From positions 50,237,986 through 50,301,985 of the forward strand of contig OZ024875.1 in the NCBI GenBank assembly GCA_964017185.1: 64,000 bases of DNA, read 5' to 3'. Made by a program: the position numbers and the translations under genes. Below, one piece after another: positions 3,330-61,182 of the stretch; position 1 is the stretch's first letter; the number at the start of each line of letters is the position of its first letter. This stretch comes from Rugalucina vietnamica. Its lineage: Eukaryota > Mollusca > Bivalvia > Lucinida > Lucinidae. Under the pieces are notes generated by a model, which saw only the letters and a program-made list of their open reading frames with translations, ran no database searches and was not told where the DNA came from.

Positions 3330-4859
3330 TTGCTGAATAACTTGAGTAGCTTTTTCCTGATTTGTTTCAAATTTTCACCACACTTGCGCCATCAGACAAT
3401 ACATGTGTGATATGAATTTAGGGGCCAAAGGGTCAGTATTGCAAGAGTTATGGGACTTTTTAAGTCTTCCTATAAGCTATAACATGTTTGCCATAGTAGT
3501 ACATACTTTGTGAAATCAACTCCTCTTACAGCTTTCAATGTTTCCTTTTAATATTTTGCTGATATGTTTCAGATATATTGCAGATGTGCATGAACAATTG
3601 TCATGCTGAAAAAATCATTTTTGACAAATTTACAGCATTTTTAACTTAGCAAATTTTCTATAATTGCTTATATTCAATAATGGTTGGTAGTGCATACTTT
3701 GTGAAATCAACTCCTCCTAGGGCTTTCAGTGTTTCTTTTCAGTACTTTGCAGACATGTTACAGACATATTGAAGATGTGCATGAAGAATTATAATGCTGA
3801 AAAAATAATTTTTGACAAATTTACAGCATTTTTTAACTTTGCCATTTTTCGACTATTGCTTACATACATACTTTGTGAAATCAACTCCTCCTAGGGCTTT
3901 CAGTATTTCTTTTCAGTACTTTGCAGACATGTTACAGACATATTGAAGATGTGCATGAAGAATTATAATGCTGAAAAAATAATTTTTGACAAATTTACAG
4001 CATTTTTTAACTTTGCCATTTTTCGACTATTGCTTACATGCATACTTTGTGAAATCAACTCCTCCTAGGGCTTTCAGTATTTCTTTTCAGTACGTTGCAG
4101 ACATGTTACAGACATATTGAATATGTGCATGAAGAATTATAATGCTGAAAAAATAATTTTTGACAAATTTACAGCATTTTTTAACTTAGCCATTTTTCGA
4201 CTATTGCTTACATACAATAATGGTTGGAAGTGCATACTTTGTGAAATCAACTCCTCCTAGGGCTTTCAGTGTTTCTTTTTAATTCTTTGCAGATTTGCTC
4301 CAGATATGTTGAAGATGTGCATGAAGAATTTTTATGCTGAAAATTTTAGTTTTGACAAATTTACAGCTTTTTAAACTTAGCCAATTTTGACCATTTCTGC
4401 TTATATTCAATTATGGTTGATAGTACATACTTTGTGAAATCCAACTCCTCCTGGGGCTTTCAGTAATTCTTTTCAATACTTTGCAAACATGTTACAGACA
4501 TATTGAAGATGTGCATAAAGAATTTTATTGGTGAAAAAATAATGTTTGACAAATTTACAGCATTTTTCAACTTAGACATTTTTCAACCATCGCTAATATA
4601 CAGTACGGCTGGTAGAGCATACTTTATGAAATCAAGTCCTCCTAGTGCTTTCATAGTTTCATTTGAATTCTTTGCACACTTGTTCCAGATATATTTCAGA
4701 TGTGCATGAATAATTCTTATGCTGAATAATTCATTTTTGACAAATTTACAGCTTTTTTTAGCATAGCCAATTTTTGACCATTTCTCATGATAAATAATGA
4801 TCAACAGTGTACAGTGAAATCAACAATAATTGTACTCCCTGAGCTTTCAGTATATTATT

Positions 4860-35600: not shown

Positions 35601-38600
35601 ATGGTGATTTGTATATTTTCCAGTGTAATAAAGGGCCAGGGAGAATTAGACAGACAGGATTACCACAACTCTAGTCAGACTACAGAAAGCAGGGCCCTAG
35701 ATGGGTGCCCCTACCTACTGTTAGATATCAGGGATAAAGATGCTTTTGACCAGTGTCATATCATTACAGGTACGATATGAGCTGCGACATGAGAACCAAC
35801 ATTTTGCCTATGCGAAAACAAAGTTGCAGATCAGCTTCGCAGTAACTGCGAAACTGATCAGCGCCTTTGTTTTCCCAATATTACAATCCCTCTAATTTCT
35901 AAATCAAAAATTTTAAGACTATAGCCTGTTTCTGTATCTGTACAGGCCAATTTGTGTCGGAAGTGCTTGAAAACCATGTTGCTTTTCTCATGACGTGGCA
36001 CATTTTATGCTGCTTTAGTAATTTGTAACCATTCCCCTCCCCCCCCCCCCCCCCCACCCCTATTGGGAAATTACTGAGACTTTTTGTCCAGCAAATCCCT
36101 GTTAAAAGCTATGAGGGGACAGTTGTATCATGAAACAATGGCTGTTTTTGGCCACAATCTGCTATGTTATTGATAATCATTTCACTCCTCTTTGCATATA
36201 TTTCACTCCTCTTTGCATATATAAAGCGAATTGTGTATTTTGCCCCGCTCTCCCAGACAGTGTGTTAGCCAAAACCTGGCTCATTTTCTATGGCCGTCCC
36301 TCACCTTTCATTTCCCATGGGGTAAAACACAGTTTACCTATGAACAATCAGTTATTGTTTACGATAAGGAAAAAGAAAAACTTAAAAAACAAAACACATT
36401 AATACGAATGTAAAAAATGAATATCTTGACATAATAAACGGTTGCATGAAATAAACAAAACATAGATGCAGCAAAAAGTTTGCGTTGTTCATCTCATGCC
36501 TGATATTTTGTTTTCTATTTTCAGCCAAGAACTATCCATCTGCAATGTTATCCAGAGCTGTAAACTATGAAACAAAAGAAATGTTAGCTTTTGTATCCTT
36601 GACTGGTGTATACATGTACACAGGGAGTAACCTACAGGGCGACTAGGGAGAAATAGTTTCCCTAGATGAACTAACCTCCCTATTTCAAGCTGAGGGAGAA
36701 GTGAAAATGTATAGATTATATAGGAAAACCTGAAATTCAGGTCCAAACTTCTCTCAAATTTTCTTTGAGAGAGAGGAAATTTCTCTCTAAAATTCTTGGC
36801 TAGGTTGAACCCTGGTACAATCAACGTCAAAACAACATCAACATTTTTGATGAAGTCATGTTTAGATTGCAGCAACTACACAACTTTCAACGCTAATATC
36901 TTTGCTATTTGTGAAGATAATCTCTTCAAATTTTCAGGAAATACACAGAAAAATTTGGTCTTTTACATGCTATAATATCTGTATTTCAAATTTTTATTTA
37001 GCTATAATAAGACTCCTTTTGTTAGATCTTGGCCTATTTAGATGAAAACCTCTTACATATGAATGTGTCGGTGTTTGATAATGGTCTACACTTAACAAGT
37101 CATATAATATGAAAGTGAAAAACTTTATTTACTACTTTTATGCAGGGCTTTATCTAATTGAGATATTTCATCCTTAACATTTATCTCAGAAAAATCAGCC
37201 AGGTAAAATCATAGTTATATATGATGAAGATGAGAGGTTGGCCCCAATGTGTGCCTCTACATTGGTGGAGAGAATGTATGATAATATCTTCCTGTTATCA
37301 GGAGGTAGGTTCATTTCTATTTTAAACCATATATAATGAATGGACTTGCCCGTGATTATCATTTGGGTGAGTTCAATTTCATTTTTAGGGGTATCAGGAG
37401 TGATTTCGTTTTTTATTTCATTTTTTTATGAATTTTTTCTTCGCAAATAATATAGCTCGAGATGTGACGTCACATTCTGCAGCGTCACATCTGGGGCTAT
37501 ACTGTTTGCCTATGGGGCTATACTGTTTGCCTATGGGGCTATACTGTTTGCCTATGGGGCTATACTGTTTGCCTATGGGGCTATAATGTTTGTCTATGGG
37601 GCTATACTGTTTGCCTATGGGGCTATACTGTTTGCCTATGGGGCTATACTGTTTGCCTATGGGGCTATACTGTTTGCCTATGGGGCTATAATTTTTGTCT
37701 ATGGGGCTATACTGTTTGCCTATGGGGCTATACTGTTTGCCTATGGGGCTATAATGTTTGCCTATGGGGCTATACTGTTTGCCTATGGGGCTATACTGTT
37801 TGCCTATGGGGCTATACTGTTTGCCTATGGGGCTATACTGTTTGCCTATGGGGCTATACTGTTTGCCTATGGGGCTATACTGTTTGCCTATGGGGCTATA
37901 CTGTTTGCCTATGGGGCTATACTGTTTGCCTATGGGGCTATACTGTTTGCCTATGGGGCTATACTGTTTGCCTATGGGGCTATAATGTTTGCCTATGGGG
38001 CTATACTGTTTGCCTATGGGGCTATACTGTTTGCCTATGGGGCTATAATGTTTGCCTATGGGGCTATACTGTTTGCCTATGGGACTATACTGTTTGCCTA
38101 TGGGGCTATACTGTTTGCCTATGGGGCTATACTGTTTGCCTATGGGGCTATACTGTTTGCCTATGGGGTTATACTGTTTGCCTATGGGGCTATAATTTTT
38201 GTCTATGGGGCTATACTGTTTGCCTATGGGGCTATACTGTTTGCCTATGGGGCTATACTGTTTGCCTATGGGGCTATACTGTTTGCCTATGGGGCTATAC
38301 TGTTTGCCTATGGGGCTATACTGTTTGTCTATGGGGCTATACTGTTTGCCTATGGGGCTATACTGTTTGCCTATGGGGCTATAATGTTTGCCTATGGGGC
38401 TATACTGTTTGCCTATGGGGCTATACTGTTTGCCTATGGGGCTATAATGTTTGCCTATGGGGCTATACTGTTTGCCTATGGGGCTATACTGTTTGCCTAT
38501 GGGGCTATACTGTTTGCCTATGGGGCTATACTGTTTGCCTATGGGGCTATAATTTTTGTCTATGGGGCTATACTGTTTGCCTATGGGGCTATACTGTTTG

Positions 38601-44849: not shown

Positions 44850-45160
44850 CACTGTTGTTAATACTATTGCTGTGTATGTATTGTAGAAAAATTCTGACAT
44901 AAAATCAGTTGTTTACCAATTATTTCGTAAACCAGGAATGATAACTGTGTCTCTAGCTGAGTTTTGCTTCATACATTGTCATCTCCCCTGTCATATATAA
45001 TGCTTTATTCAATTTTATATTTTACATCCACAGTCAACAGCTAAGGTCATGTCAGGATGGTCACTTATCTCAGCCTTGCTGTTCTTGGGCAAGCTTCCCA
45101 GAGGCAGATTACAAGTAGTTAGTGTACATTTCTTTCACTATTAACTGACAATAATATATG

Positions 45161-45584
45161 GATCAAAAATGATTTTCCATTCACTAACATTCTCTAGGCC
45201 CTAAGGGGAGTGTTGAAAACCGAGTGTTTAGCCGGATGCTTGCAACACTCGCTGAGGGACCCAGCGAATATTAATGAATGACAAAATCATTTTTGATCGC
45301 GATTATTGCATAAATTCTGCACAAACAAAAGAAATAATGATGCACTATATTTTACAGCCTCATCACATTTTCATATGCGTAAAAGTTTTCATTCTTATGC
45401 TTGTTCCGGGCAGACTTCCGTTACTCATTATTAGCATGTGTTTTGCGTGGCGCCCGGTAACAAGCATAAATAAAAGCCATGTATTAACAGCACACTTGTA
45501 CAATAATTTCTATTTTAATACATGTCTTTCTTTTCATTAGTATATGGCTGTTAATATCGTGTGAAATGGGTATTTATGCAATAA
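45161..45584 (+). mobile_element. Palindrome-headed element, copy 2
   Basis: Same as 20267-20711: GATCAAAAATGATTTTCCAT arm, ACTCGCTGAGGGACC, second arm, then module ending TATTTATGCAATAA. The palindrome is more diverged. Immediately followed by copy 3. Confidence 0.8.
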
Positions 45585-45590
45585 TATATG

Positions 45591-46018
45591 AATCAAAAAT
45601 GATTTTCCATTCATTAACATTCGCTAGGTCCTGAGGGGAGTATTAAAAACTGAGGGTGTAGCCTAAGGTTTTCAACACTCCCCAAGGGACATAGGGAATG
45701 TTATTGAATGACAAACTCGTTTTTGATTGCTATGATTATTATGTAAATTCTGCACAAACGAAAGAAATAATGGTGCTTTATATTTTAGAGTGCCTTGGTG
45801 CATTGTCACATTTTCATATCCGTAAATGCTTTCATTCTTATGCTCGTTCTGGTTGGACTTCGGTTACTGCTTTGGGTGGCGCACAGTAATGAGTATAAAT
45901 AAATGCAGTGTATTTTAAAACAGCATGTGTGCATACAAATTGCCACATTAATACACAGTGTTTTTCTTCGTTCCTATACGGCTGTTAATACCATATGACA
46001 CATGTATTTATGCAATAA
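45591..46018 (+). mobile_element. Palindrome-headed element, copy 3
   Basis: Third copy, head to tail with copy 2 and separated only by TATATG. The most diverged of the three; ends GTATTTATGCAATAA. Confidence 0.8.
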
Positions 46019-46148
46019 TTGCTCTTCTTGACCAAGTGAACATCAATTATGGGTCTGCATCATTTCTAATTGAACATGTTACTGATTAGTATGTGAAGAT
46101 TTTGGATATACATTCAGATCAAGATTGGACAGCTCCTGGGCCTTCAGG

Positions 46149-48042
46149 AGAGCTAAAAGTATAGCTATGCTCTGTAGTCTGTGGTCATCATCATCTGCCC
46201 ACTGCCCACATTTTCAAAGAAGAATATCTCCGAAGCTAGTGGGCCAACCTTGCTCAAATTTCATGTGAACAATCATTTGGTAGGGGTGATTCCATTGGGT
46301 TTTGGAGTAGATTTTGTGAAAACTAGTTTCCATAGCAACATATAGCTCCTATAGACTTACAATGGGAAAACATAAAACAAAAAATTCTTTAAAAACCACA
46401 AGGCTGACAGCTTTTATGTTTTTATACCCCGCCACTTAAAAAAGTGCGGGGTATTATGTTATACCCTCCAAAAAAATTTGCGTTCGAGTGTCCGTCCGTC
46501 CGTCTGTCCGTCTGTCCGTCCGTCCGTCCGTCCGTCCGTCCGTCAGCATTTCGTTTCCGGGCTCTATCTTGAGCATTTATTGACCGATTTTCTTCAAACT
46601 TTGTATAGGAGTTTATATCAGGAAGGAGTGGTTTGGGATTGAAGATGGGTAAATTTCGTCAAATAAGTACAGAGTTATGGCCCTTGATTTACGTTAAAAT
46701 TTCGTTTCCGGGCTCTATCTTGAGTATTTATTGACCGATTTTCTTCAAACTTTGTATAGGAGTTTATACCATGAAGGAGTGGTCTGGGATTGAAGATGGG
46801 TAAATTTCGTCAAATAAGTACAGAGTTATGGCCCTTGATTTACGTTAAAATTTTGTTTCCGGGCTCTATCTTGAGCTTTTATTGACCCATTTTCTTCAAA
46901 CTTTGTATAGGAGTTCATATCAAGAAGGAGTGGTCTGGGATTGAAGATAGGTAAATTTTGTCAAATATGTACAGAGTTATGACCCTTGATTTACGTTAAA
47001 ATTTTGTTTCCGGGCTCTATCTATTGACCGATTTTCTTCAAACTTTGTATAGGAGTTCATACCAAGAAGGAGTGGTCTGGGATTGCAGATGGGTAAATTT
47101 CGTCAAATAAGTACAGAGTTATGGCCCTTGATTTACGTTAAAATTTTGTTTCCGGGCTCTATCTTGAGCATTTATTGACCGATTTTCTTCAAACTTTGTA
47201 TAGGAGTTCATACCAGGAATGAGTGATTTGGGATAGAAGATGGGTAAATTTTGTCAAATAAGTACAGAGTTATGGCCCTTGATTTACATTAAAATTTTGT
47301 TTCCGGGCTCTATCTTGAGCATTTATTGACCGATTTTCTTCAAACTTTGTATAGGAGTTCATATCAGGAAGGAGTGGTTTGGGATTGAAAATGAATAAAT
47401 TTAGTTAAATAAGTACAGAGTTATGGCCCATGATTTACATTAAAATTTCATTTCCTGCCTCTGTTTTGTGCATTTATCAACCAATTTTATTCAAACTTTG
47501 TATAAAAGTTCAAATCAGGAAGTAGTGGTTTGGGATTGAAGATGGGTAAATCTTATCAATGTATACAGAGTTATGGTCCTTCATTTATGACAAAATTTTG
47601 TTCTGCTCTTTATCTTGAGAATTTATTTAGAAACATTTTTGCTAAATTAAATTTGCGTGGCGGGGTATCATGCATGCCTGCAGCGCTTTTATTTGTGTAT
47701 GAGGTAGCAGTGTATAGTAATCCTCTTTATAATTCCTGTCAACCATGTCCCTGAGGTTCATAGGGAGTCATTATCCACCATAAGCTAATAATAATAATAA
47801 TAAAAAAAACATGATAAAATCTCTGAAACCACAAGACCCAAAGCTTGTATATTTAGTATGCAGCAGTTTTAGGTGGTGTTCAACATAAATTCTGCCAAGC
47901 CTGACTCTGTGGCCTAAACTCCTTGGAGTCATTAGCTCCCATGTATAATAGAATGTTATTCTCTTTAGCAAAAGATTAGGGGGGTTGGTGTCCTTGAGCA
48001 GGATGCATTTACTTTCTATTTAAGTTCTGTTTAAGGACCAAT
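46149..48042. mobile_element. Diverged Helitron-like element F (element C type), split by element E
   Basis: TCAAAGAAGAATATCTCCGAAGCTAG, AGTGGGCCAACCTTGCTC, GCAACATATAGCTCC and, after 47690, AACCACAAGACCCAAAGC are recognisable element C words. A decayed 3' end AGGACCAATG lies near 48034. The boundaries are approximate. Confidence 0.5.
46434..47688. mobile_element. Helitron-like element E (151-bp core) nested in F
   Basis: 5' ATACCCCGCCACTT with hairpin AAGTGCGGGGTAT, then (CCGT/CTGT)n at 46488-46545. About seven tandem units of 151 bp follow (TTTCCGGGCTCTATCTTGAG, AACTTTGTATAGGAG, AAGTACAGAGTTATGGCCC); the fourth is shortened. The 3' side has GGCGGGGTAT inverted to the start. Flanks TTT on the left and TTTT on the right. 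Confidence 0.78.
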
Positions 48043-48571
48043 GAAGCAATGACTTTAACAGTATTGAAAAAAAATTGTCAGGGTCGTCAAACAACAGCAC
48101 AAATAAAAGATGGTTTAGAGCTTAATACTTGAGATTAATTGCCTATTTTATTCAGTAATTATTAACTGATGTACATGGATTTGGTTCAAAAAGTGCATTT
48201 ATGAAGAAATCACTATCTCCCTTTCATCATATCACAAATGTCCATATGTTACCAAAACCTTTATTTAAGCCGTGGGAGGCATAAACCTAGCACAGGGCTG
48301 CTGATCTGGTCATCCGCAACCAATCTGCCTAGTTACCTGGACATGCCAGAGACTTTAAAACCGTAGTATGGAAAAGTGGTACTTTAAAAGCAGTGAAGAT
48401 ACAGTATGGTGAAAAAATCTTGCTCTGACCTCCATCTTTGTTGTACATATAAAACTAAGCAGGTTTTCTGCGGACAAAGTTTATTCACTTTATTCATAAG
48501 CTTTCCTTGAATCAATGTGAAATATTGTTTTCTATTGAAAAGGTGTGTGGCTTTCTAAAGAAAGCTGGAAA
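48043..48571. other. Intergenic, nothing recognised
   Basis: No supported gene or repeat in this stretch. Confidence 0.4.
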
Positions 48572-48830
48572 CAGATGTCTAAGGCTTCGCGTAAGAAAAC
48601 CAACAATTTGGGTTTCAGACCAGGTCCAACACAAACCAGCATGTACAGTCAAAGAAGCAGGCAAGAAGCTTAAAATTTTGGATTTAAGAAGAAGGGAGCT
48701 TGTACTATCTGTGTAGCGAAATCAAAGCCGCTGACCAGCTTCGTGGTTACCGCGAAGCTGGTCTGTGCCTTTGTTTTCTCACATGCAAACTATTGTTTTT
48801 CTGATGCAGTGGCTCAGATGTCTAAGGCTT
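48572..48830 (-). mobile_element. MITE-1 copy 18 with 16-bp flanking duplication
   Basis: Element 48588-48814, lacking the first bases of one terminus, between exact copies of CAGATGTCTAAGGCTT (48572-48587 and 48815-48830). Other copies show 4-bp duplications, so this flank is anomalous. Confidence 0.85.
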
Positions 48831-49069
48831 GCCTTCATGTATACCGCATGTTGACTTAAGATGTGTAGTAAACAATGTAAAAGGCAAGCGTTTGTTTGGT
48901 TTTCATGTTTTGTTGCAAACATACACAAAGACTTCTATAAAACATTCAAAAACGCATGTTGATTTTGATGCGGATTTTTGACAATGCTGCATAAAAGTAA
49001 ATCTGAAACAGCTGCAGAAAGCATTTTTAGCTTTTTGTTCAATCTGAGTTTTCCTCTTTGTTGCCAGTG

Positions 49070-49237
49070 GTTGGTATGAATACATCGGCGAGGCGGTTCT
49101 AACATTTACCCACAATCAATGTTTTGAGTAAAAAAGTTAAAAATATCTACTTTTTTTTCAACAAAATTTTCAAGTTTGCTTCTGAAAAAGTTCTCTGTAT
49201 AGTGCATGAGCGAGCTTTCATAATGGTAAATAGAATC
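49070..49237 (-). mobile_element. MITE-2 partial copy
   Basis: TCGGCGAGGCGGTTCTAACATT, ACCCACAATCAATGTTTTGAG and GTGCATGAGCGAGCTTTCATAATG; the CCCCAGTTTTA half is missing. Confidence 0.7.
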
Positions 49238-49893
49238 CCAACACAGACCACAGGCATGAAAGAAATGACACAAGAAGACATTTCATAACTCATAACAAGA
49301 CATCTAGAGCAACATGACTAGTTCTTCCCCAGCAAGGTAACCATCTTAATTTGCTAGCATCAACTACAACAGGGAGACAGGTCGAACAAACAGACCAACA
49401 GCACATTTAACATTGAATGGTCAGTAAAGAAGTAACTTGAGGACAAAATCTGTCACATTAGCAGCTAAAACAAAATAAAAATCCCCATTTTACCCATAAT
49501 TCCAAGGGGCCATATGATTTCCAAATATGGCAATTACATAGATTAACTAAGACTCATTTTGCATAAGTATAAAAGAAAGGTCGATGAAATTCCATTTGAA
49601 GTGAATCTTCTGCATTTAGTGAACACCTCAAGCACAAGGTGTAAAGCAAATTGATTCACACAAACAGAACGAGTTGGCCATCTGAAGGATAAGTTGTGTT
49701 CCAAGAGATGCTCGGTCACCTTACATTATATACTATGCACAATAAATTAAGCAATTTTCGGACCTAGTATATCCGCCAGTCTCTGCACATAATAAACAAA
49801 AGTTAATTTTTGGTCTGTATGCATAAGTGTCAACCTTACAAGATCTTGCAAACCACAGAAAAACGTCAAATTCAAAAACCTAGGATCTTAAAG
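49238..49893. repeat. Penelope-like 3'-region fragment and unassigned sequence
   Basis: 49215-49450 carries AACACAGACCACAGGCATG, TCTTCCCCAGCAAGGTAACC and GAATGGTCAGTAAAGAAGTA, matching 51190-51400 and 55060-55270. From about 49450 to 49893 nothing is recognised. Confidence 0.45.
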
Positions 49894-50459
49894 AGCAGTC
49901 ACACATCAGCGTATAAGTGAAACGCGCGCCGGGCGTGTTGAAAAAATAGCAAAATTCCTCACACGCCAGACGCACGTCGGAAACACGTTCAAAACTCGCT
50001 ACAAGCGCGTTGGGTACGCTTGGTGTACGTCCGGCGCGCGTCGCTGTACGTCGCTAAAAGTCTCTGCGCGTTTCGCGCGCGTTTGGGCTAAAACTTTTTT
50101 TAAACATGCTTAAAAATTTTCTAAAAGCTCGGCGTGTCCCGGGCGTGTGACTTATACGTCCCGAATAAGTTCCACGCGCGCTACGGGCGCGTTGAATACG
50201 CTCTGAACGCGTTTGGCGCGCGTTTGAAGCACGCCAGTGTACGTTCCATGCGCGTTCCGATTTTATTAGATGTTGCTTCAGTAGCGTGCCCCAAGCGTGT
50301 GTGTATACGTCCGACACACGCCCCAGTTGCGCGCTAATGTGTGACTGCTAAAGCGTGTTAAAGGAACAAATTAATTTTTATACGCCCAAAGTCTTCAGCG
50401 TGTTGAGATTTTTCATACGCCCGGCGCGCGTTTGGGTTATACGCTACAGTGTGACTGCT
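49894..50459. mobile_element. CpG-rich inverted-repeat element
   Basis: Ends AGCAGTCACACATCAGCGTA and TACGCTACAGTGTGACTGCT are inverted, and similarity extends about 47 bp inward (GAAACGCGCGCCGGGCGT). A third terminus-like motif TGTGTGACTGCT lies internally at 50336-50347. The interior is packed with ACGCGCG/GGCGTG words, giving CpG density far above its AT-rich surroundings. No transposase. Confidence 0.75.
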
Positions 50460-50828
50460 GTTTAAATTTCTCGACTAAAACGTTGCTTTGCTTTTTCTTC
50501 GTTTTGATGAGTAGATAGTTGCTTAAGCATGATTTTTGTTTCCCACTTCAAACAGACCTGTCAAATTTGATACTGACACGAATTTGACGTTTTTCTGTGG
50601 CCACTGCATTATCACCATACAGTTGCGTTTCTCTTGAAAAACGGCACTGAGTGATAATGCCTGGCTCATACAAATATGTTACATGTTGTGCCAAATAAAG
50701 AGATTTTGCAAAATTCCCCTTTGTGGCTACAAAGCATGAGCCGTTAAGTAAATATTGAGTTCAAATTAGTGTTATTTCACTAGCATGACGAATTATGGAT
50801 CAGAAACATCGAAGAGAAATACTGTAAT

Positions 50829-51140
50829 TTTGCAACTTTCAACAAGACAGTCGATACAAAGACTAATATTATCCAAACAGAGCCAAATATATAAAATTTG
50901 GTAAGGAAACGAATCTAAACAGACAATAAATGTAGGTTTTCTCAGAAAACCTCTCTGATCTCAAAGGACCAAAAGGAAAATGTACTTTGGATGATGTACG
51001 GGGAGACTTATAGGGCCGCCAAACGGCACAACACCAGCTGCAGAATAAAAACTGAGATTCATTAAGAGCAGTTAGCATATCAAAGAGAATGGAGGTGGGT
51101 CATACCGCGGTTTCGGCTTCTGAAGCCTCTTCAGTGACCC
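50829..51140 (-). mobile_element. Penelope-like terminal region (pLTR) with hammerhead
   Basis: ACAGAGCCAAATATATAAAA, GATCTCAAAGGACCAAAAGG, GGATGATGTACGGGGAGACT and the hammerhead at its right end. The same blocks recur directly at 54140-54260 and inverted at 60080-60390, as expected of repeated termini of one retroelement family. Confidence 0.65.
51097..51140 (-). ncRNA. Type I hammerhead ribozyme motif, core intact
   Basis: Read on the - strand: stem I strand GGGTCA, core CTGAAGA (consensus CUGANGA), stem II GGCTT-CAG-AAGCC, GAAA, very short stem III CCGCGG, T-A, then TGACCC closing stem I. Every conserved core base is present, and cleavage is predicted after A (NUH = GUA) before TGACCC. 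A tiny stem III is typical of hammerheads in Penelope-like elements, where they are known to occur. Activity is not shown. Confidence 0.8.
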
Positions 51141-51189
51141 TCTTTCGTTGCCTTTGGTTGTGGTTCAGACAAGCCGGACTGGCGAAATA

Positions 51190-51400
51190 CCAGAAATTAA
51201 TTTTAAGGCCCAGCATAGACACCAGGTGAGAAAAAATACACCGCAAAATGCAAGATGAATAGCTCTTTCCCAACATGGTATCCATCCAGCTAATCTTAAC
51301 CAAAACGAAAAGGCAACGAGCACAACAGAGGCAGACAGAATAAACAGCTATATCATGAAGATAAACCACTCTTACTAGGACGGGCATTACCGTTTTCATT
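51190..51400. repeat. Penelope-like 3'-region fragment
   Basis: AGCATAGACACCAGGTGAG, GAATAGCTCTTTCCCAACATGG and ACGAGCACAACAGAGGCAGAC correspond to 55060-55270 in order and direction. Confidence 0.5.
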
Positions 51401-51439
51401 CGCACGGTGACGTTTTTAATGGGGCAGCAAAATGGCACT

Positions 51440-53519
51440 GGACATTCACGATTTTATAAATAAACCTGCATGTGCAAATAATGAATAATCGAATTTCCGT
51501 TTTTGGTGAGGACGCAAAAGTATAATCCTGGAGAATAGGGTTCTGTACGAACAAAACCTAAACGACCTGTTTGCTGTCAGGAAAATTTGGTTGTCAACAT
51601 TTTTTGTCATTTCGGAGTGGATCGAGCCACAGCGTTTGTGTATTAATTAGTACTCTGGGGATTTAGGCTGTCAAAACAATTGAAATGATCAGAATTCAAC
51701 GATGTAAATAGCTGATTTCATTTCATGAATAAGCTGGTGACGGTGGTATATGATTATCAATTTTCAGGTCTTTGGCCGATTAACTAAATAGAAATTGTGC
51801 CACGGCAAAACAATCCAACAACGATTCAAGAAGTTGTATATAAACAAAATTGTAGGACTTTGAGATCCACATTGAAAAACAAAATATCTTAAGTGTTGAC
51901 TCAGAAAAAATTACTATTGCCTGCAAGTGCTCAAACTTAATCCAGTCTTTTCTTGGAACAATTGTCACAATGTTAATTTATGTCGTGAAGTGGCTTATGA
52001 AAAATGACGCTAAAATGAGCATTGCAGCATTAATAAACCTGGCCTGCCACAACACAAAACTATGAGACGTCTTTGTGCTTTAGACCAACCGCATAGGTGC
52101 AGGTGTGTGCAGTTTGTGATGGGTGTTTCTAGTACCGTACACCATTTCAGTGGTCCCACGCATGAGTGCCACGCATTGTCACTTCTTTACATGTAACAAA
52201 CTCTTGTGCATCTTTTCCTGAATTCGTCTTGATATCCTATGATTTCTTCTATTTCAGTTTTATAAGGAACCTTTTTCGCCAGTTCGATGCGCCACACACA
52301 CGGTTTATTGAAGCTGTCATAGAGCCCCTTGCAAGCTAACCCAGGACACAATTTGCCTTTACCTCTTTACATGTCTCCACAGTATATTTATTCAACCTTC
52401 TAGATATATTTTGTCCATCTGATTATACAGTTGACCTGCCAAGCATCAATAATATTTCATGGTGTCTAAATCGCCGTTACAATCAGAAAAATGACATTTA
52501 AGGTCATTTTTATTCATGCTACGGCAGATTCAGAAATCGCTAATTCCACCTTTGTACCCATTTGACTTTCGTCTGATAGAAAATTTTCTCTATATAAAGA
52601 AATCTAGCATCGACCCATTGATTTTCAATGAAAGATCTTTTCATAATTCAACGGGATTAAGCAGGGTAGATTGAGGTTGTTATAGCAACTGCAATAACAA
52701 GTATGTACCAACTTATAAAACATGTCAATCAGTAGTATATCATACACTGATTTATGGTTCAATACGTTAACCCATCTATCATAGTGTGCTACGACAGTTT
52801 CTCTGCTGTGCAAGGGCAAATTTTAAATGACAAAGATGCATCCTAGTTATGGAACAAGACCAAACATCGAAATTCCAGATTTTACTGGCTTTAAATGACA
52901 TTCTTTGAAATATATGAGACAAGAATGAATTTTTCACGACAATAAAGTCCAATATGGAATCGCCCTAATGACAAGGATGGTAAAGACCATTCGTTTCAAA
53001 ATGGGCCAATGTGGTTCTAAAAAATCCATACTCTTATTATATATGAATACCCATGGTATTTTTAAACAGATCTATACATCGTGGAAGTCATGACAATGAA
53101 AAATCATATAGACTTAAGTGCAAAAGCGGATCTAAATTTCAAAGCGCGTTAGCATAATGCAGGGATTTATGGTTGTAGAAAATAAGCTGTAAGAACCTCA
53201 TCTACTCATTACCTTTCCAAGGATTGGTAACAAAGTATAATTGAGATAAATTTCTTCATTGCTGAAGGTGTGTTTCCATCGCGGAAGCATTAAAATGCCT
53301 AGCCTAAAAATACGGGCGTCATGATTTGACAACAAAGCATGATAAAACACAAGGAAATGCTGCTATCAAAGAACTCCGGTGATGAAGATAATCAAATCAT
53401 GCCAAACCTAGAAAAAATAATAGTTCTTTCTTCCAATAATTGATACAAGAATGACAAAAATACCATAAATGCATTAAAGCAACATTCTTCGTGAAATGTT
53501 TTGTGCTGTTTGAGCCTGA
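51440..53519. other. Intergenic, nothing recognised
   Basis: AT-rich, short frames only, no domain or repeat boundary I can support. Confidence 0.4.
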
Positions 53520-53720
53520 TGTACGCTTTCATTTTTTAGGTAAGTTCGGGTAACTGAATGGTCGTCTATTGGGGAATAGCTGCTCACTCGGCTTAATATA
53601 TGTTTTCTTGGTATAAGTAACTAAATGTCGTTTTGGTTTTATCCCACCCCTCGGTTTGTGAAGTGGGAATTTCTTTCTGATTGTGCCATTTCCTGATCAT
53701 TGCTTACTTTTACCTTTTGA
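53520..53720 (+). repeat. Inverted Penelope-like 3'-region fragment
   Basis: GGGGAATAGCTGCTCACTCGGC, TTGGTATAAGTAACTAAATG and CCTCGGTTTGTGAAGTGGGA are the inverse of sequence at 55000-55140 and 59340-59500. Confidence 0.6.
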
Positions 53721-53970
53721 TGTTATCATTTTTAATTGAATTAGTCAGTTTCTTTTCCAAAATGTTACCATTTCAATAAGGATGGGTATAATTTATCCAT
53801 TTCCGAAGTTATCAATATCAGACATACGTCTTAGAAGTACCCTCATCATGCGATAGAAAGTTGCCACAGCATTGATCAAACCAAGAGGCATTTTCTTGAA
53901 GGTAAAAGTCCTTCAGAAGTTACGAATGCTGTAAACTGTTGCTAAATAAGATATAAATGTAAGTTCGTTT

Positions 53971-54013
53971 GGTACTGCGCAATTTCGGGTACTGAACCCT
54001 CATCAGTGACCCC
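53971..54013 (-). ncRNA. Degenerate hammerhead motif
   Basis: - strand: GGGTCA, CTGATGA, stem II GGGT-TCAGT-ACCC, GAAA, TTGCGCA, GTA. The core is perfect, but the sequence after the predicted cleavage site (CCAAAC) no longer pairs with GGGTCA, so stem I is lost. Confidence 0.6.
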
Positions 54014-54342
54014 GCGACGATAGCCAGATAAAATTAATATACTGCAATTTCAAAAACTTACACAAGGGTCGTCTAAATTAAAGACAGATGCCTAAACGGA
54101 TTCAAATAATTAAACGATTGTTTAGAAGGTGGCTCTAAACTCAGACATTTATTAGATACTCTGAATACTCTTATTGATCTCAAAGGACCGACAGAAAAAT
54201 ATAATCTGCACTATGGATGATGTGCGGGGAGACTTTTAATGATCTCAACACGATACATCGCCAACTGCAGTAATAACAAATAAAATATAAATAAATGTAA
54301 GATCCTTTGGAAGCGGTGAAAACGTTCAAATGGATGTAGTTT

Positions 54343-54370
54343 GGGCCATATTGCGCAATTTCGGGTACAG
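54343..54370 (-). ncRNA. Half hammerhead remnant
   Basis: - strand GTACCC, GAAA, palindromic stem III TTGCGCAA, TA, TGGCCC. The CTGANGA half is missing. It lies about 370 bp from the 53971 motif, between duplicated pLTR blocks. Confidence 0.5.
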
Positions 54371-54999
54371 ACAGGGCTTTTTAATATTGATTTGTCAATA
54401 GCCCTTAGCGAGATCAAGCTTTTGGACGTTTCTACCTTTAGCCATTTTAGCAAACAGTTCGTCAGGATTCCCCATGATTTCTACTCGCTGTCTTTTTCAT
54501 TCGAATGTCTCAGCAGAATCTTTTTGAAACAGTCACCGATGGTGAAACATATGATAATGTGCAAAGCTGTATAATAGCATGTTTTAGCATAGTATAGGGA
54601 ACAGGGTAAGACTTACACTTAATAGGTTGCAATGTCTGTTGACCATCGAATGACAGAACGTTTGTCTGAATACTTATGCAAGAGATTCACTACATGACTT
54701 TTCTGTTTTTCACCAAGATAACCAGAAACAGTCTCTTTAAATTCAACTGCTGGGAAATATACACCTTCTCTAGTTTCTTTGTCAATAAGTTATAGGTTCA
54801 GAGGGCACAGGCTAATGCAACAACAGTAACCTCGTACGCCTTTTTAATGATTTATACCTATTCGCATGATCGCATGATCTACTGCTTATCACCAACACAG
54901 TCTTCCGTCAACCAGGCCGTAACAAGATATCCTGGAATCATCTTCGATGCAAGCAACAGACATTTCATGGACGGGGAATGGATAGACTGTGTGTAAAGA

Positions 55000-55300
55000 G
55001 GTATAAGTAGGCAAAGATCAGGAAAAGGCGCAATCAGAAAGAGAATCCCACTCCAAAAACCGAGGTGGGAAAAAACCAAACTAACAATCAGGCACTTATA
55101 CCATGAAACATATCGTAAGCCGAATGAGCAGCTATTTTCCCAATAGGTTACCTTAACTTAATTAAAAATATGAAAACATACATAAGGCGCCAACAGCACA
55201 AAAAAATTTTAAACACCAAGACATAAAACAAAAAGAACCACCACAGAAGTATCGCCTTGGAACGATCAGTAACACAAAGTTACTGGCGGGCTTAAACCGG
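55000..55300 (-). repeat. Penelope-like 3' untranslated segment
   Basis: Contains GAATCCCACTCCAAAAACCG, GAATGAGCAGCTATTTTCCC and TATCGCCTTGGAACGATCAG. Direct copy at 59340-59530, inverted copy at 53520-53720. Confidence 0.6.
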
Positions 55301-55605
55301 TTTTACAGGATCCTAACCTCACCCTCAGCTTCTGCAGTGGTTCATAACATTTAGTAAGTTCTTCGGTTCTCGTGGTGAATCTCTAACTAGTCAATGAATC
55401 ATCAAGAACAAACAAATAAATCATGATAAACATCCTGATGAATCAAAAACCAGGACTCACAGATTGAGTAAGCTGCCCGACGATGGAGATCCCTGGGCGC
55501 CGAATAACCTACTAACTCCGGAGCAAAAGAAAAACACCAGTTGGACCCCGGTGGGCCAAGCAACAGACAAGAAGCTCCGGCCCCAACCAACTAAAATGAA
55601 TAGCT

Positions 55606-56238
55606 TTAAGTCGGGGCCATCATAGAGTCTGACGCCCGACCCACCGGCGTGCAATTAAAGAAGGCAGCATAGTTATCAACCATGACTGGGTTAAAAACTA
55701 AGCATGCAGACTGTCGCATAACATTCAAGTTATAACCTATACGTCTGTAACGTGTTATGAATTTTCTGAACTGAAAAGAAAAATCATTAATTCCTATAAG
55801 TTTCTTAAAGTTGTAAACTAAGTCACCATAAAATTCAGGTTCCGAAAGGCCCTCACTTAAAAGCGTCTTTAACCCAACATTACATTTGGAAATCAATTCA
55901 TAGTGTCTACGATAAAATTTAGAAAAGGTTTTTCGAAGTTTATGATACCGATAGCCCTGTTGGAGAAGTTTTGCCGTTAAACATTTATTTCGAGCGTTGA
56001 AGTCTGTAACATGATTGCAGACTCTAGCAAACCTAATAAGTTGCGAAATGTAAACACCATAAGAAGCACGACGAGGAACGTCACCATCCAAAAAAGGAAA
56101 ATTTACTATATCAAAATCAAAGTCATCGCGCTTATCATAAATTTTAAAAGAAACAAATCCATTTGCAACAGAAAGATGTAGATCTAAAAAGGGGGCTTCG
56201 GTATCTGTAAGATTGATGAGTACTTTGTGTGCTGCAGA
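55606..56238 (-). pseudogene. Retroelement reverse-transcriptase C-terminal fragment
   Basis: Open from just after a TAG at 56239-56241 to TAA at 55606. It encodes LTDTEAPFLDLHLSVANGFV, SFKIYDKRDDFDFDIVNFPF, LDGDVPRRASYGVYISQLIR, FARVCNHVTDFNARNKCLTA, KLLQQGYRYHKLRKTFSKFY, RRHYELISKCNVGLKTLLSE, ending NYAAFFNCTPVGRASDSMMA-PT. TEAPFLDL and SYGVYISQLIRFARV are seen after the RT palm in Penelope-like/related retroelement proteins of invertebrates. The catalytic part is missing upstream. Class is supported by nearby hammerheads; the domain assignment is from memory of the family. Confidence 0.65.
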
Positions 56239-56255
56239 CTATATGGATCACAGAT

Positions 56256-56580
56256 TCAATTTACGTATACAGCGACAAGAAAGAAAGCCATACAATGACA
56301 AGAAAGAAAGTCACTGAGAAAACTGGCGTCAAAAATGAACAAAGGCAGTTTGATGAGGTTTTCATCAATGGCATCTGCAATCATATGGAACATGTTTAAG
56401 ACACGACATAAGAAAACTGGACAACTTTTCAATTGTATTTTTATTTCCAGCTCAGCTTTGAATTGGCCTAAAACATCGAGCCGGTCAAAGAAATAAAGAG
56501 GCACCTCTTGCAAAAGGCAACTAGTGATGTTTCTAGCTCGGTGTCCAAGAAGGAAGCCTACAAGTACGTCATACAGCTGG
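56256..56580 (-). pseudogene. Broken upstream frame of the same retroelement
   Basis: A frame reads QLYDVLVGFLLGHRARNITS, CLLQEVPLYFFDRLDVLGQF, KAELEIKIQLKSCPVFLCRV and continues through IADAIDENLIKLPLFIFDAS. It is protein-like but out of frame with the 55606-56238 segment. It could be retroelement coding sequence or antisense chance; not recognised. Confidence 0.3.
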
Positions 56581-56599
56581 ATGATGATGTTTTAAAGTA

Positions 56600-58990
56600 T
56601 TCGATGGACAGAATATGACTTATGAACCATTGCGTCCTGAAGCCATCCTGCTGTTCAACCACTTCTAATTCAAAGGCGCGAATTTTGGTTTTAAAGTTAA
56701 GGAGAAATTTACAGCATTATTTCACTAAGGGAGAAACAGGAGTGATCCTTCCATTCTTATTCCCTATAAGAATTTGGCGTATATAGAATCCTTAGATGAG
56801 CACCGACAACAGAGAGGCGACTCCTTTTATCCATTGCTGGAAAGGAATAAGCAAACATCCTAGATAATTGCCATAGTGCGAGGCATCTTGACCAGGCTGT
56901 GTGGTCTTAATAAGGCATCGAACAAGGACAGAGAAACATATTAGACATGGCTTTTACAGAAATTTGGAAACCTCAGAATGAATGCCATGTTGTCGACTTC
57001 ATCAAATTCACCAAAGTCTTCTACAAAGTTTATTACAAAGTTTTTCTAACCATCCGATGACAGCATAGATGTAGTTATGTGTAAAGAACAATAAAAGAAC
57101 AATGCAAATATTTCCGAGCCATTTTGATGACTAAATGAGACAAACTTGAGTGCGTTATCTGCACCAGAATAACTTTCATCGCCGTCCTTATCAGGTACTG
57201 ATTTGATAGTACATGTATATACTTGTTTTAAAACCAATAGAGAGATTTTAAGCAAAACCGAAGATGTAAACAGATAAACATGAGAGATCCTCCTTGCAGA
57301 GGACATAATATTTAGGGCTTTGAATCGGATTTACAAAGACGCTAAAATAACTATAACCATCTCGGTGCATGGGCAAATTCTGAAAATCATTTGCCTCCAC
57401 ATTTATGGAGAAGTTGCACTCTGTTAGTGGTAGGCTACTATAATTGGGTTCATGCAAGAGCAATAAAGACATTTTTGCATTTGACGACACACCTGTCTGT
57501 ATTGGCCACTCTTCATGGAAGTGTCAATGCTAAAACCAAGGGTCTACAAGACAGTAAATTACTAGTAAATACTGTCTGCATATAAGCACGAAAATAAGAC
57601 CACTTTATTCCCCAGGATGCTATACCATTGTCACTTAGTTTTACACAGAAAACGTTTGCAAAGCACGTGGCAAGACAAAGTAAAAAAAAGAGAAATATCA
57701 TGAAAAAAAAAAGTGAAAAGCTTCTTTCGGCTCTTTAAACATGCTAAACTGAATATTATAACTAGCTACCAAAAATAATTGATCATGCAACGAGACCACA
57801 TGTTCAGCGACTTTAACAGAAAAAAATCTGTGGATTCCTTATTTAATTGTTTATTGTATGTATTTTTATCTAACATGTCACATTTCATGTTGTCTTGTTC
57901 AAAAATATTTACTACATTTTTTCCAGTTCAATATATACGGTAATCCCCTGTTTCTGATGCCATTCAAAACAGCACAGCAGGTTGAAACAACTTGGTTGTT
58001 CCACTTACGACGTGCATGATTACCTGTGCATTACAATCTGGTTAGTTAGTATCGTCATTGACCAATGTCTACATGTAATTTGATATAGTTTAATATTTTC
58101 TAGTTTGTATTTTTCGTTCAATCTTTTAATTTCAGACCTTTATGAATTTATTTATCTTCGGAAGCTGTTACACGTGTTTCTTGGACCCAACCTTGTCAGA
58201 AACCAGGATGACATTTTTCTCATGACAGGACTTAAGGCGACACAGCAGGATGAACACACACATTGCAAGCCTCTGTGACCTACTGCCAAGCCTCTGCCAC
58301 GTTGTTGCACAGCGCCAATCAGACATGGCGGCTGTAAAGCTTCTAAAATTTGAAAAATTTATGATTATATATGATGGGACAAGGAAGCTTTCAGGAATAC
58401 TGGTGTACCTATCAATTCATTATTTAATTGAAATGAAATAAATAACATTGCTTAATTTGTTATGTTGTAAAGGACATTATTTCTGTCTTTAATAGTCCTG
58501 TTTTGTTCAATTTTATAATGTTTACAGCAGTGCGCGCTCTAACCAGTCCAGACGGATTTCATAATTAGTCGGAATCTGACTGTGTGCGGGCACGCAATTA
58601 CGACGGAGTTAAAATGTTTGGACTGTTTCAAAGGCGACCATGTGCCAAATGTTTCCTCATTAGATGATAAATGCAGAACACCTTGGGATAGAACTTGTTC
58701 GGCACAACGGAAGGACAGCTGACGTATTAAGAAGCATAGTTCCATACAAGGGCTCAACTTAAATGAAGGTATGTTTCCATGTTTTACAAAAATAGATTAA
58801 TAAATAAATAAAATTTATAATAATATAATTAATTTCTTGGTCGTAGCAAAGAGGCTTGACCTCTTATTTTGAAAACCTATCAATGTAGTGTGAAAATGTA
58901 AATTAGCTTAGAAAAAAAACTAAAAACATGTAGACCAGCCAATTTATAAAGTTAACCCAGTTTCCGACTTGAATCTCCTTGAGTTAACTG
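56600..58990. other. No supported gene
   Basis: Probably decayed 5' part of the Penelope-like element plus unrelated sequence. A MITE-1-like scrap (CCTTGTCAGAAACCAGGATG, TTTTCTCATGAC) lies at 58190-58228. The + frame at 58250-58441 has no recognised domain. Confidence 0.35.
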
Positions 58991-59078
58991 AAAAAGAACT
59001 TGGCTTTTGACAGCCGTATAATTAAAATATAAAGGTTGAATCCGTTGTAAGCAGAGGAATAAATCAAATGGATACAGT

Positions 59079-59125
59079 GGATCATAATTGCGCGATTTTC
59101 AGCAATGCGCCTCCATCAGTGACCC
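59079..59125 (-). ncRNA. Degenerate hammerhead motif at the 5' side of the element
   Basis: - strand: GGGTCA, CTGATGG (last core A changed to G), an imperfect stem II, GAAA, ATCGCGCAATTA, TGATCC. Stem I (GGGTCA with TGATCC) can still form with one G-U pair. Confidence 0.5.
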
Positions 59126-59339
59126 CTTTATAAAGCGGCAATGGAAGTCAGACGTGTCCTTCATTTTCGAGAATTTACACAAGATAATTCTTAATCAAAG
59201 ACGCAATTTATTCTTATACAGAGACATATAGTTTAACACTTAAAATTAAAAAGAGATGGCGAGACATTTTGCCCGATTATATTAATATAAAGATATGTAT
59301 TCGTTTAAACACAGAACTCTTCAAAAATATTAGTTGATT

Positions 59340-59530
59340 GTATTCGAAAGGTACAAGCAGGCAACGATCAGGAAATGTCGCAATCAGAAAAAGATTCCCA
59401 CTCCAAAAACCGAGGTGGGAAAAAACTAAATTTACAATCGATACTAATACCATGAAGACATATCTTAAGCAGAATGAGCAGCTATTTTCCCAATAGGTGG
59501 CCACTCAGTTACCTAAACTTAACTAAAAAT
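59340..59530 (-). repeat. Penelope-like 3'-region copy
   Basis: TCCCACTCCAAAAACCGAGG, TGGGAAAAAACTAAATTTACA and GAATGAGCAGCTATTTTCCC match 55020-55140 directly. It lies outside the hammerhead at 59079, suggesting tandem or nested element copies. Confidence 0.6.
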
Positions 59531-59862
59531 ATGATTACATACATAATGCATTTACTACATTAATGCATGCTCTTGATCTTCATCTTTAATTGCTTTCATA
59601 GGAAACGTATTAAAAAAATCACATTTTACTTTTAAAACAAAGCAACAATATTTATTTCAAGTAACAACACAGTAATGTTTTTGAAAAAGCGTTCTTATAT
59701 AAATTCCTACCGGTCAATTTTATATTGTGGTGTCTGTCCAGTGCAAAATAAATATGAATAGGACTTGCAATGATTTGTTTAAAAAAAGAATATATAAAAC
59801 TGTGAAATGTCAGTTTACATTTAATAAAGACTTTTGACCTGAGTAATTAAACGGAAAAATAA

Positions 59863-59863
<1 letters not shown>

Positions 59864-59911
<48 letters not shown>

Positions 59912-59946
59912 ATAGAATAAATAAATAAATAAATATATAAATAAAT
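59864..59946 (+). repeat. Poly(A) tract and (AAAT)n
   Basis: 43 consecutive A (59864-59906), then ATAAATAAAT repeats. Could be a retroposed poly(A) tail or slippage; no adjacent gene copy recognised. Confidence 0.9.
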
Positions 59947-60049
59947 AAATAGAATATTTATGTCCAATATTTTATATACAACCATTTACTATATCACTTT
60001 GTATTTCGCACTGTTTTAAAAAAGTAACCGCAGGCAGCATACACGTGTA

Positions 60050-60390
60050 AATGTCAATAGACCTAATTTTTCGTGACTTTCGAAAACTCTATTGACTTCC
60101 CCGTACATCATACATAAAGTCTCCTCGTACATCAGCCATAGTGCAGATTATATTATCATTTTGGTCTTTTGAGATCAGCGAGGATATTCTGAGAAATCAG
60201 AAATTCATTATTTAGATTCATTTTCTAACCAATTTTTTTTTATATAATTTGGCTCTGTTTGGACAATCGATTATCCTGTTGAAAGTTGCAAAATAATGTT
60301 AAATTAGTTCTTTTTGGCTCCATTTTGCGAAATCTAAAGGGTCACTCTAGAGGCTTAAGTAGCCGAAACCGTGGTATGACCCTTCCCATT
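60050..60390 (+). mobile_element. Inverted Penelope-like terminal region
   Basis: Inverse of 50829-51140: AGTCTCCTCGTACATCAGCC, GCAGATTATATTATCATTTT, GGTCTTTTGAGATCAGCG, AATTTGGCTCTGTTTGGAC and a mutated hammerhead. With 50829-51140 it forms a widely spaced inverted pair (about 9 kb). Confidence 0.65.
60339..60382 (+). ncRNA. Mutated hammerhead motif, inverted partner
   Basis: + strand: GGGTCA, CTCTAGA (consensus CUGANGA, two essential bases changed), stem II GGCTTAAGTAGCC, GAAA, CCGTGG, TA, TGACCC. Overall fold kept, core broken; predicted inactive. Confidence 0.65.
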
Positions 60391-60399
60391 TCTCATGAA

Positions 60400-61182
60400 T
60401 ATGTTCACTGCTTTCAAAGGATCTGAGTTTTATTTTTATTATTTTCATGTTTGCAAGAAAAGATATCTTGCTGGGCAATACATTTAAATGTTTTTCGTGT
60501 TATTTGAAAGGTATATGAATAAAGAAATTAACAAGGTACTTTCATTAGGTTCCATGCATGCATTTTCAAGCTACAAATTTTAAAAGAGTTGTGAGATTGT
60601 TTTAAAATTTTTGGGCAACGTCACCATTGACGTCAATGGGATTTTGTTAACAAAATTTCCTTTAAATTTTAGCTCTTGTGTTTGAAAAATGCAATGTCGA
60701 AACTTCATCAAATGACCTCTGTTTATTACTACATTTGTTTAATTTTCAAATGACACAAAATCATACAAGCTGTTGGCCAGAAGAGGAAGGATATTTTTTT
60801 ATTGTTAATATGAAAATACAGTGCAGTCTATGGAGTTTTCGAAAGTGACGAACAATTATGTCTACTGACTGACGGAAATGGAAATTGATGCTATTCCATA
60901 GTGATAAGATACGTTGCCGTAGGGGCTACCCGAACATTTCACGAAAAGTAATGTGATAGAGTCACTCAGCTTCATTCTAAAAATGACAAATTCTAAATTA
61001 TTGATGATTATTACAGACCGGTGAAAGGGTCTGCAATGGGGACAAAATTAACTCCTACATATGTCACACTCATCGTAGGTCATATTGAACAGAAGCTTAA
61101 CCGAAAGATGCAGAAATTGTGTAACGAAAAGTTATGCAAGAAGATTTACTCAGTTAAAGGCACACAAAACAATACAATATAG
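60400..61182. other. Intergenic, nothing recognised
   Basis: AT-rich sequence with no supported gene or repeat. Confidence 0.4.

Follow-up and report, generated by a model that had tools for sequence, protein, structure and literature searches.

We found that the minus-strand interval 50812-51141 in a 64,000-nt stretch of Rugalucina vietnamica DNA (contig OZ024875.1; hereafter the window) probably represents, at a likelihood of roughly 60%, a single decayed copy of a hammerhead retrozyme whose reverse transcriptase (RT) would be supplied in trans by a Naiad-type Penelope-like element (PLE). What appears to be new here is that a highly conserved block of the retrozyme unit has the sequence of nt 18-58 at the 5' end of Naiad. 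It is this common block, not the co-location of the two elements, that would argue for a partnership between them.

The hammerhead core was read directly from the minus strand, where it runs through GGGTCA (51140-51135), CTGAAGA (51134-51128), GGCTT (51127-51123), CAG, AAGCC (51119-51115), GAAA (51114-51111), CCGCGG (51110-51105), T51104, A51103 and TGACCC (51102-51097), with predicted cleavage between A51103 and T51102. These letters were exactly those written out in the original prediction, and its claim that stem I is closed by exact complementarity also held (6 bp, GGGTCA/TGACCC). Stem II has 5 bp, stem III consists of only A15.1-U16.1 and one C-G pair, and the invariant core (CUGANGA / GAAA / U16.1 H17) was present in the window copy by both direct reading and structural scan. 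A loose core pattern matched the window 5 times vs 10.3 expected and is by itself worthless as evidence. The full structural motif, which demands a stem I of at least 5 bp, a stem II of at least 4 bp and two closing stem III pairs, gave one match in the window and two in 300 windows simulated with its dinucleotide composition (0.007 expected). Since only exact CTGANGA cores with uninterrupted stems qualify, the scan overlooks imperfect motifs such as that of locus L083 described below. As the original prediction had proposed, the genome was searched for further copies: the pattern CTGANGAGGN9CCGAAACCGCGGTA, covering the core and the stem II edges with stem I unconstrained, had 2,542 exact matches (1,247 + 1,295) in the 1.09 Gb of the single assembly analysed and none when reversed. 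The core is not a chance occurrence, because it stood alone in the window scan and has these relatives in the genome.

A covariance search, also proposed with the prediction, went against it. Rfam release 15 gave no hammerhead at gathering in the whole window and none at E ≤ 10 in 45000-60000, where, beside SECIS, six matches fell under their gathering scores and were taken for chance. The genome-wide family compensates for this missing covariance match. Predicted folding was also unfavourable: the minimum-energy fold of a 49-nt stretch (-18.2 kcal/mol) was not a hammerhead, the hammerhead fold reached -12.7 kcal/mol, and in the competing fold CTGAAG was predicted to pair with CTTCAG of stem/loop II. 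The hammerhead fold lay 5.5 kcal/mol above the minimum in the window copy and 2.4-3.8 kcal/mol above it in three other members. Self-cleavage of the window copy is doubtful, with little or no activity expected, since it is a single ribozyme with no array partner and the competing fold is more stable; as a monomer it would probably cleave poorly or not at all.

The unit around this core (Table 1) aligned over its full span to the relatives at L040, L053, L058, L052, L029 and L032 with 74-79% identity. The hammerhead forms its 5' edge, and the unit stops ~25 nt short of a second hammerhead; no second hammerhead was found within it, and neither the usual family 3' end nor a target-site repeat was seen at 50812-51141. 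None of the other three hammerhead units of the window (0/3) is intact. In the degenerate family-A unit the core CTGATGA..GAAATTGCGCAGTA lies at 54006-53973 with the 3' strand of stem I gone, and at 54371 the 5' half of the hammerhead is gone. All hammerhead-unit and Naiad pieces detected in the window sit above 50.8 kb. Elsewhere in the window, a minisatellite at 37418-39213 has three reading frames that stay open over long distances (SPIGKQY / LFAYGAI / VCLWGYT repeats). Near 11238, 28118, 33718 and 44609 lies a dispersed repeat, several open frames of which contain the coding-like phrase KPTICIGENKDADQLRGNREADQRLCFRY or something very similar. The 5' flank of the L028 hammerhead unit matches the window many times, possibly at the minisatellite.

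Table 1. Hammerhead-unit and Naiad-type features of the window, in order of position.
Feature	Position	Strand	Basis or match
Single hammerhead unit of family B, ~330 of ~375 nt	50812..51141	-	Alignments to relatives
Block common with Naiad nt 18-58	50993..51032	-	92.7% in the window copy
Minimal type I hammerhead core, 6-bp stem I	51097..51140	-	Direct reading, structural scan, family
Naiad-type 3' end fragment in inverse orientation, nt 3999-4222	53494..53718	+	Alignment
Degenerate family-A unit	53973..54371	-	Pattern match, alignment
5'-truncated Naiad-type PLE: RT C-terminus, SECIS, fixed 3' end	54995..56215	-	Naiad nt 2996-4223, 95.9%
SECIS_1 spanning the stop codon of the Naiad-type RT	55564..55631	-	39 bits, cut-off 35
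Relic hammerhead unit, about 71% identity	59020..59205	-	Alignment
Naiad-type 3' end fragment, nt 4019-4221	59347..59549	-	Alignment
Family-B unit with broken core, CTCTAGA replacing CTGANGA	60116..60444	+	Alignment

Stem pairing was examined in an alignment of 49 distinct hammerheads out of the 68 in the loci then collected. Briefly, only rows that kept the core intact and had four or more stem I pairs and three or more stem II pairs were used, a filter that favours pairing, and 88.1% of cells paired vs 11.5-49.8% for slid structures. Two-sided changes were seen at stem II pair 3 (C-G/G-C, 15/49 rows) and at the stem III pair (C-G/U-A, 17/49 rows), and none was seen in stem I among the 49 rows; in 44/49 the positions that form the innermost pair of stem II in the window copy did not pair. 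Two-sided cells numbered 35 vs 13.7 in shuffles, a count reached by 0/500 shuffles, whereas the number of pairs with a two-sided change (4 vs 3.6) and of pair types (12 vs 12.4) did not exceed the shuffles, and the two-sided changes mostly mark the split between families A and B. The paired stems I and II, with paired changes among relatives, are in keeping with a minimal type I hammerhead. In most rows stem III read CCGCGG or TTGCGCAA, each of them a palindrome. CCNNGG cores had 3,791 matches in the genome, and among the first 91 of these listed the stem III centre was GC in 61, AT in 21, GT in 5 and AC in 4, so that by hand count 82 of the 91 had a palindromic centre. The two-step AT centre was thus commoner among the 91 listed sites than the one-step forms, an excess of the kind that two-copy pairing would favour. 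The AT-centre copies may however be one subfamily, as 17/21 have an identical core, stem II and loop.

Units of family A (pattern CTGATGAGGGTTCAGTACCCGAAATTGCGCAATA, with its decayed member at 53973-54371) and of family B align across their entire ~370-375 nt. The ~375-nt unit has no ORF of its own and occurs in head-to-tail copies, and many of the insertions read contain 1 to 1.6 units. Adjacent hammerheads were mostly 361-382 nt apart, with a few shorter spacings (175, 315 and 327 nt); in family-A loci the spacing was 370-382 nt, with one of 327 nt. Unit ends of the 30 family-B loci (L029-L058) were derived from local alignments. The 3' end lay 92-110 nt past C3 of the last hammerhead in 23 of them, typically terminating in ..GGATCTCAGTTTTATTTTTATT, the exceptions being L044, L045, L047, L049, L050, L055 and L058, and the 5' ends differed among the 30. 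A target-site repeat was convincing only at L056 (15 nt), and the 4-8-nt repeats elsewhere were near chance. A mostly fixed 3' end, variable 5' ends and a target-site repeat, all present in the family, are marks of retroposition. Units within a locus were 99.5% (L020), 98.9% (L061) and 91.4% (L028) identical, and the units of L019, L025 and L026 were 98.9-99.7% identical to the L020 unit, so that the family must have been recently mobile. A repeat of >3 kb that contains a hammerhead unit was read at L003-L008 with C3 changed to T in 6/6 loci, and equal scores suggest that this repeat lies behind many further matches of one genome search.

The neighbouring PLE piece, at 54995-56215, was compared with L082, a full-length tandem copy with a unit of 4,223 nt. 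The N-terminal ORF of L082 encodes a GIY-YIG endonuclease (EN; PF01541, 26.3 bits, cut-off 22.6) and has three in-frame TGAs, with one more in the RT ORF, and SECIS_1 was found in L082 (37.4 bits) as it was in L059 and L061; the combination of in-frame TGA and SECIS in L082 points to the use of selenocysteine. The EN and RT ORFs of L082 lie in different frames and overlap by about 40 nt, which a frameshift, an intron or decay might explain. Searches of Pfam, NCBIfam and PDB sequences returned no convincing match for the RT, and we presume its assignment from YLDDLLN and GIPMGTNCAPLVADLFLYCYE, two motifs identified visually. We take this N-terminal-GIY-YIG selenoprotein PLE, both at 54995-56215 and in L082, to be of the 'Naiad' type, the N-terminal-EN PLEs reportedly named and described by Craig et al. 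in 2021. Naiad PLEs resemble the neighbour in the window in N-terminal GIY-YIG, in-frame TGAs and SECIS (as judged from the full copy L082), and they are not known to carry a canonical hammerhead. No hammerhead was found in L082 either by exact-core scan of 9.9 kb or by Rfam, and the hammerhead as a part of Naiad was rejected, the full 4,223-nt unit lacking one by scan. Naiad-type sequence is abundant: L016, a longer relative of the RT at 54995-56215, gave 24,817 first-look candidates in the genome, and the 144 that were scored were at least 98% identical to the L016 RT. Apparent Naiad-type pairs in opposite orientation, 5'-to-5' within about 4 nt, were seen at L064, L073 and L078.

Comparison of 11 unit queries with Naiad revealed the common block, which was identical to Naiad nt 18-58 in A1 and B9 (41/41 nt) and matched at 88-98% in the other nine; beyond the block, none of the 11 queries had similarity to Naiad with E below 0.1. 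The block stretch was more conserved than the unit as a whole (0.95 vs a mean of 0.86 in 24 aligned units, mostly of family A), ranking 26 of 379 alignment windows, and the best among the windows listed overlaps the block. The block was matched 50 times in 75 sequences, which were mostly chosen for hammerheads and in which the Naiad loci L063-L081 stop short of the 5' end; 47 of these matches were in hammerhead units, two at Naiad 5' ends and one at a locus edge. Joined to Naiad-specific downstream sequence, the block gave 370 exact genome matches (193 + 177) and none in the reversed control, and several of these exact 5' ends were in tandem at spacings of 4,223-4,230 nt, the length of the Naiad unit, with one at 4,279 nt. 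Because of these 370 ends and their unit-length spacing, the block is no local accident: it belongs regularly to the 5' end of Naiad. A conserved RNA structure of the block was considered and rejected: single-sequence folds were alike, but the RNAalifold alignment fold was without covariation. The hammerhead unit is not itself a Naiad, since the two have only the 41-nt 5' block in common; this common block suggests that Naiad drives the retrozyme, through a mechanism that we infer below.

Hammerhead units and Naiad pieces do occur together. RT pieces were found near hammerheads in 8/47 distinct loci (3/17 of family A and 5/30 of family B), about half of which would be expected from Naiad density as estimated from the 24,817 first-look candidates. 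Among 19 Naiad loci chosen by RT alone (L063-L081), a long hammerhead unit lay within 1.5 kb only at L069, and short hammerhead-unit matches of about 40-72 nt were seen in four (L065, L073, L075 and L077). Template jumping or co-insertion was considered for L034, L050, L059 and L042 and rejected, as a full-length Naiad query resolved all of these as nested insertions: hammerhead units are inserted inside Naiad at L059 and L042, and Naiad pieces inside a hammerhead unit at L034 and L050, the unit at L050 restarting ~20-29 nt before its break point. Two junctions persisted, a one-sided one at L035 and, at L061, a unit and a Naiad lying tail to tail with 19 nt between them. Unit-Naiad adjacencies numbered 10 vs a permutation mean of 1.28 (reached by 0/2000), in a count that each nest enters twice and that does not prove co-mobilisation. 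Thus, co-location does not prove a partnership, because nesting occurs both ways and Naiad density would explain about half of the eight loci.

We propose that tandem retrozyme units would be transcribed as head-to-tail RNA, which the hammerheads would trim or circularise, with the palindromic stem III pairing two copies for cleavage as a dimer and with circular RNA as a possible intermediate. Target-primed reverse transcription would then start from the fixed internal 3' site and be followed by 5' truncation on insertion, using RT presumably provided in trans by the abundant N-terminal-EN selenoprotein PLE of Naiad type. The block might act as a shared promoter or as an RNA tag recognised by the Naiad protein, and a ribozyme that is protein-assisted or dispensable, as in the Anolis PLE discussed below, is a live option. 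Our tentative generalisation, which we would not yet back at even odds, is that the hammerhead retrozymes of animals are parasites of Naiad selenoprotein PLEs, keeping an exact copy of the 5' block as a ticket to the RT or as a stolen promoter. If true, a hammerhead-free autonomous element would drive in trans an RNA parasite that is processed by a ribozyme and is possibly circular, and hammerhead and RT would belong to separate elements. The identity of the block in young copies makes the question of the retrozyme's enzyme directly testable.

The observations were weighed against readings in which Naiad plays no such role. Retrozyme and Naiad could be independent, having in common only a promoter-like 41-nt block, with another RT (e.g. 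LINE) mobilising the unit; the block is indeed the sole common sequence with E below 0.1, mutual nesting in repeat-rich DNA largely explains the co-location, and LINE-type RT frames, judged by eye, adjoin the units of L019 and L052. Independence is nonetheless unlikely in our view, given the 41/41 identity to Naiad of two unit queries in a part of the unit that is itself highly conserved, and given that 47/50 block matches fell in hammerhead units and two in Naiad 5' ends, albeit in loci mostly chosen for hammerheads. That the window core is a chance match or a non-functional relic, with no ribozyme biology behind it, would fit the missing Rfam match, the unfavourable fold of the window copy, the decay of the other three window units and the C3-to-T change at L003-L008, but it seems very improbable when 0.007 such motifs are expected by chance, when thousands of relatives have an intact core and when stems II and III carry paired changes.

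The remaining alternative is close to the original prediction, which had placed the hammerhead in a Penelope-like terminal repeat: the ~375-nt unit would be the pseudo-LTR of a C-terminal GIY-YIG Penelope/Poseidon-like element, and tandem units would be leftover terminal repeats. Minimal hammerheads in PLE pseudo-LTRs have been published (PMC7761336, PMC6155905), and the genome does contain other GIY-YIG PLE families with long frames (760 and 765 aa, for example), some with ~3.9-kb tandem spacing. One such family was read at L083 (G000:C15:429500-433900), a canonical C-terminal-EN PLE with a 964-aa ORF. At its minus-strand position 898, about 330 nt before the ORF, a hammerhead-like motif of its own was recognised by eye, with a palindromic GCGCGC stem III, an imperfect stem II and a sequence unrelated to the family of the window; neither the exact-core scan nor Rfam at E ≤ 1 detected this motif. 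The unit as a part of the L083 family was rejected, as blastn gave no similarity between L083 and the units at E ≤ 0.01 in this one family read and its hammerhead-like motif differs. Frames of at least 130 aa in L001-L058, checked by eye, held no canonical PLE, and the units mostly stop at their own fixed 3' site and have no ORF, which makes a pseudo-LTR origin quite unlikely. The prediction stood for the hammerhead, at the level of sequence, and for the surrounding retroelement debris, and was unsupported for the Penelope terminal repeat, the neighbouring PLE having its GIY-YIG at the N-terminus and no hammerhead in its full-length copy. The link to PLEs appears to be of another kind, namely the 41-nt block common with the 5' end of a Naiad-type element, and a retrozyme moved in trans by such an element is the reading that we prefer.

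Several features of this retrozyme can be compared with published systems, as far as the passages seen describe them. Non-LTR retrozymes of animals carry type I hammerheads (Cervera & de la Pena 2020, PMC7229834), and PLEs were put forward there as strong candidates for moving them on the basis of common hammerheads, tandem copies and co-occurrence. Hammerheads with a weak stem III were reported to cleave as dimers in amphibian members (PMC7229834), and dimer cleavage was proposed for the minimal hammerheads of PLEs (PMC7761336, citing Lunse et al. 2017), in which the tertiary contact between loops I and II was reported absent (PMC7761336). Cleavage by a PLE hammerhead from Anolis required the presence of the element's protein, and catalytic mutants still inserted in vitro (PMC11167929). 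Our literature search, in the portions of papers that it covered, found no paper linking Naiad to hammerheads, and the passages of PMC7229834 make no mention of a 5' block from a selenoprotein PLE such as the units here carry. Like the non-LTR retrozymes in those passages, the family consists of short non-coding hammerhead units (~170-400 nt) in dimers to multimers and thousands of copies, and its ~375-nt unit is similar in size to the mussel retrozyme repeats (~350-390 bp). Unlike them, it has a near-stemless palindromic stem III (CCGCGG or TTGCGCAA) and many insertions of 1 to 1.6 units. A tiny stem III, type I topology and tandem arrangement are shared with the minimal hammerheads that Cervera & de la Pena (2014) and Lunse et al. 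(2017), as cited in PMC7761336, described from PLEs and Terminons, but the family differs from them in that no PLE ORF was found to belong to the unit and the PLE that shares its block is without a hammerhead in the full-length copy L082. In unit length, hammerhead and head-to-tail arrangement the family would thus class with the non-LTR retrozymes, with the window copy as a single unit.
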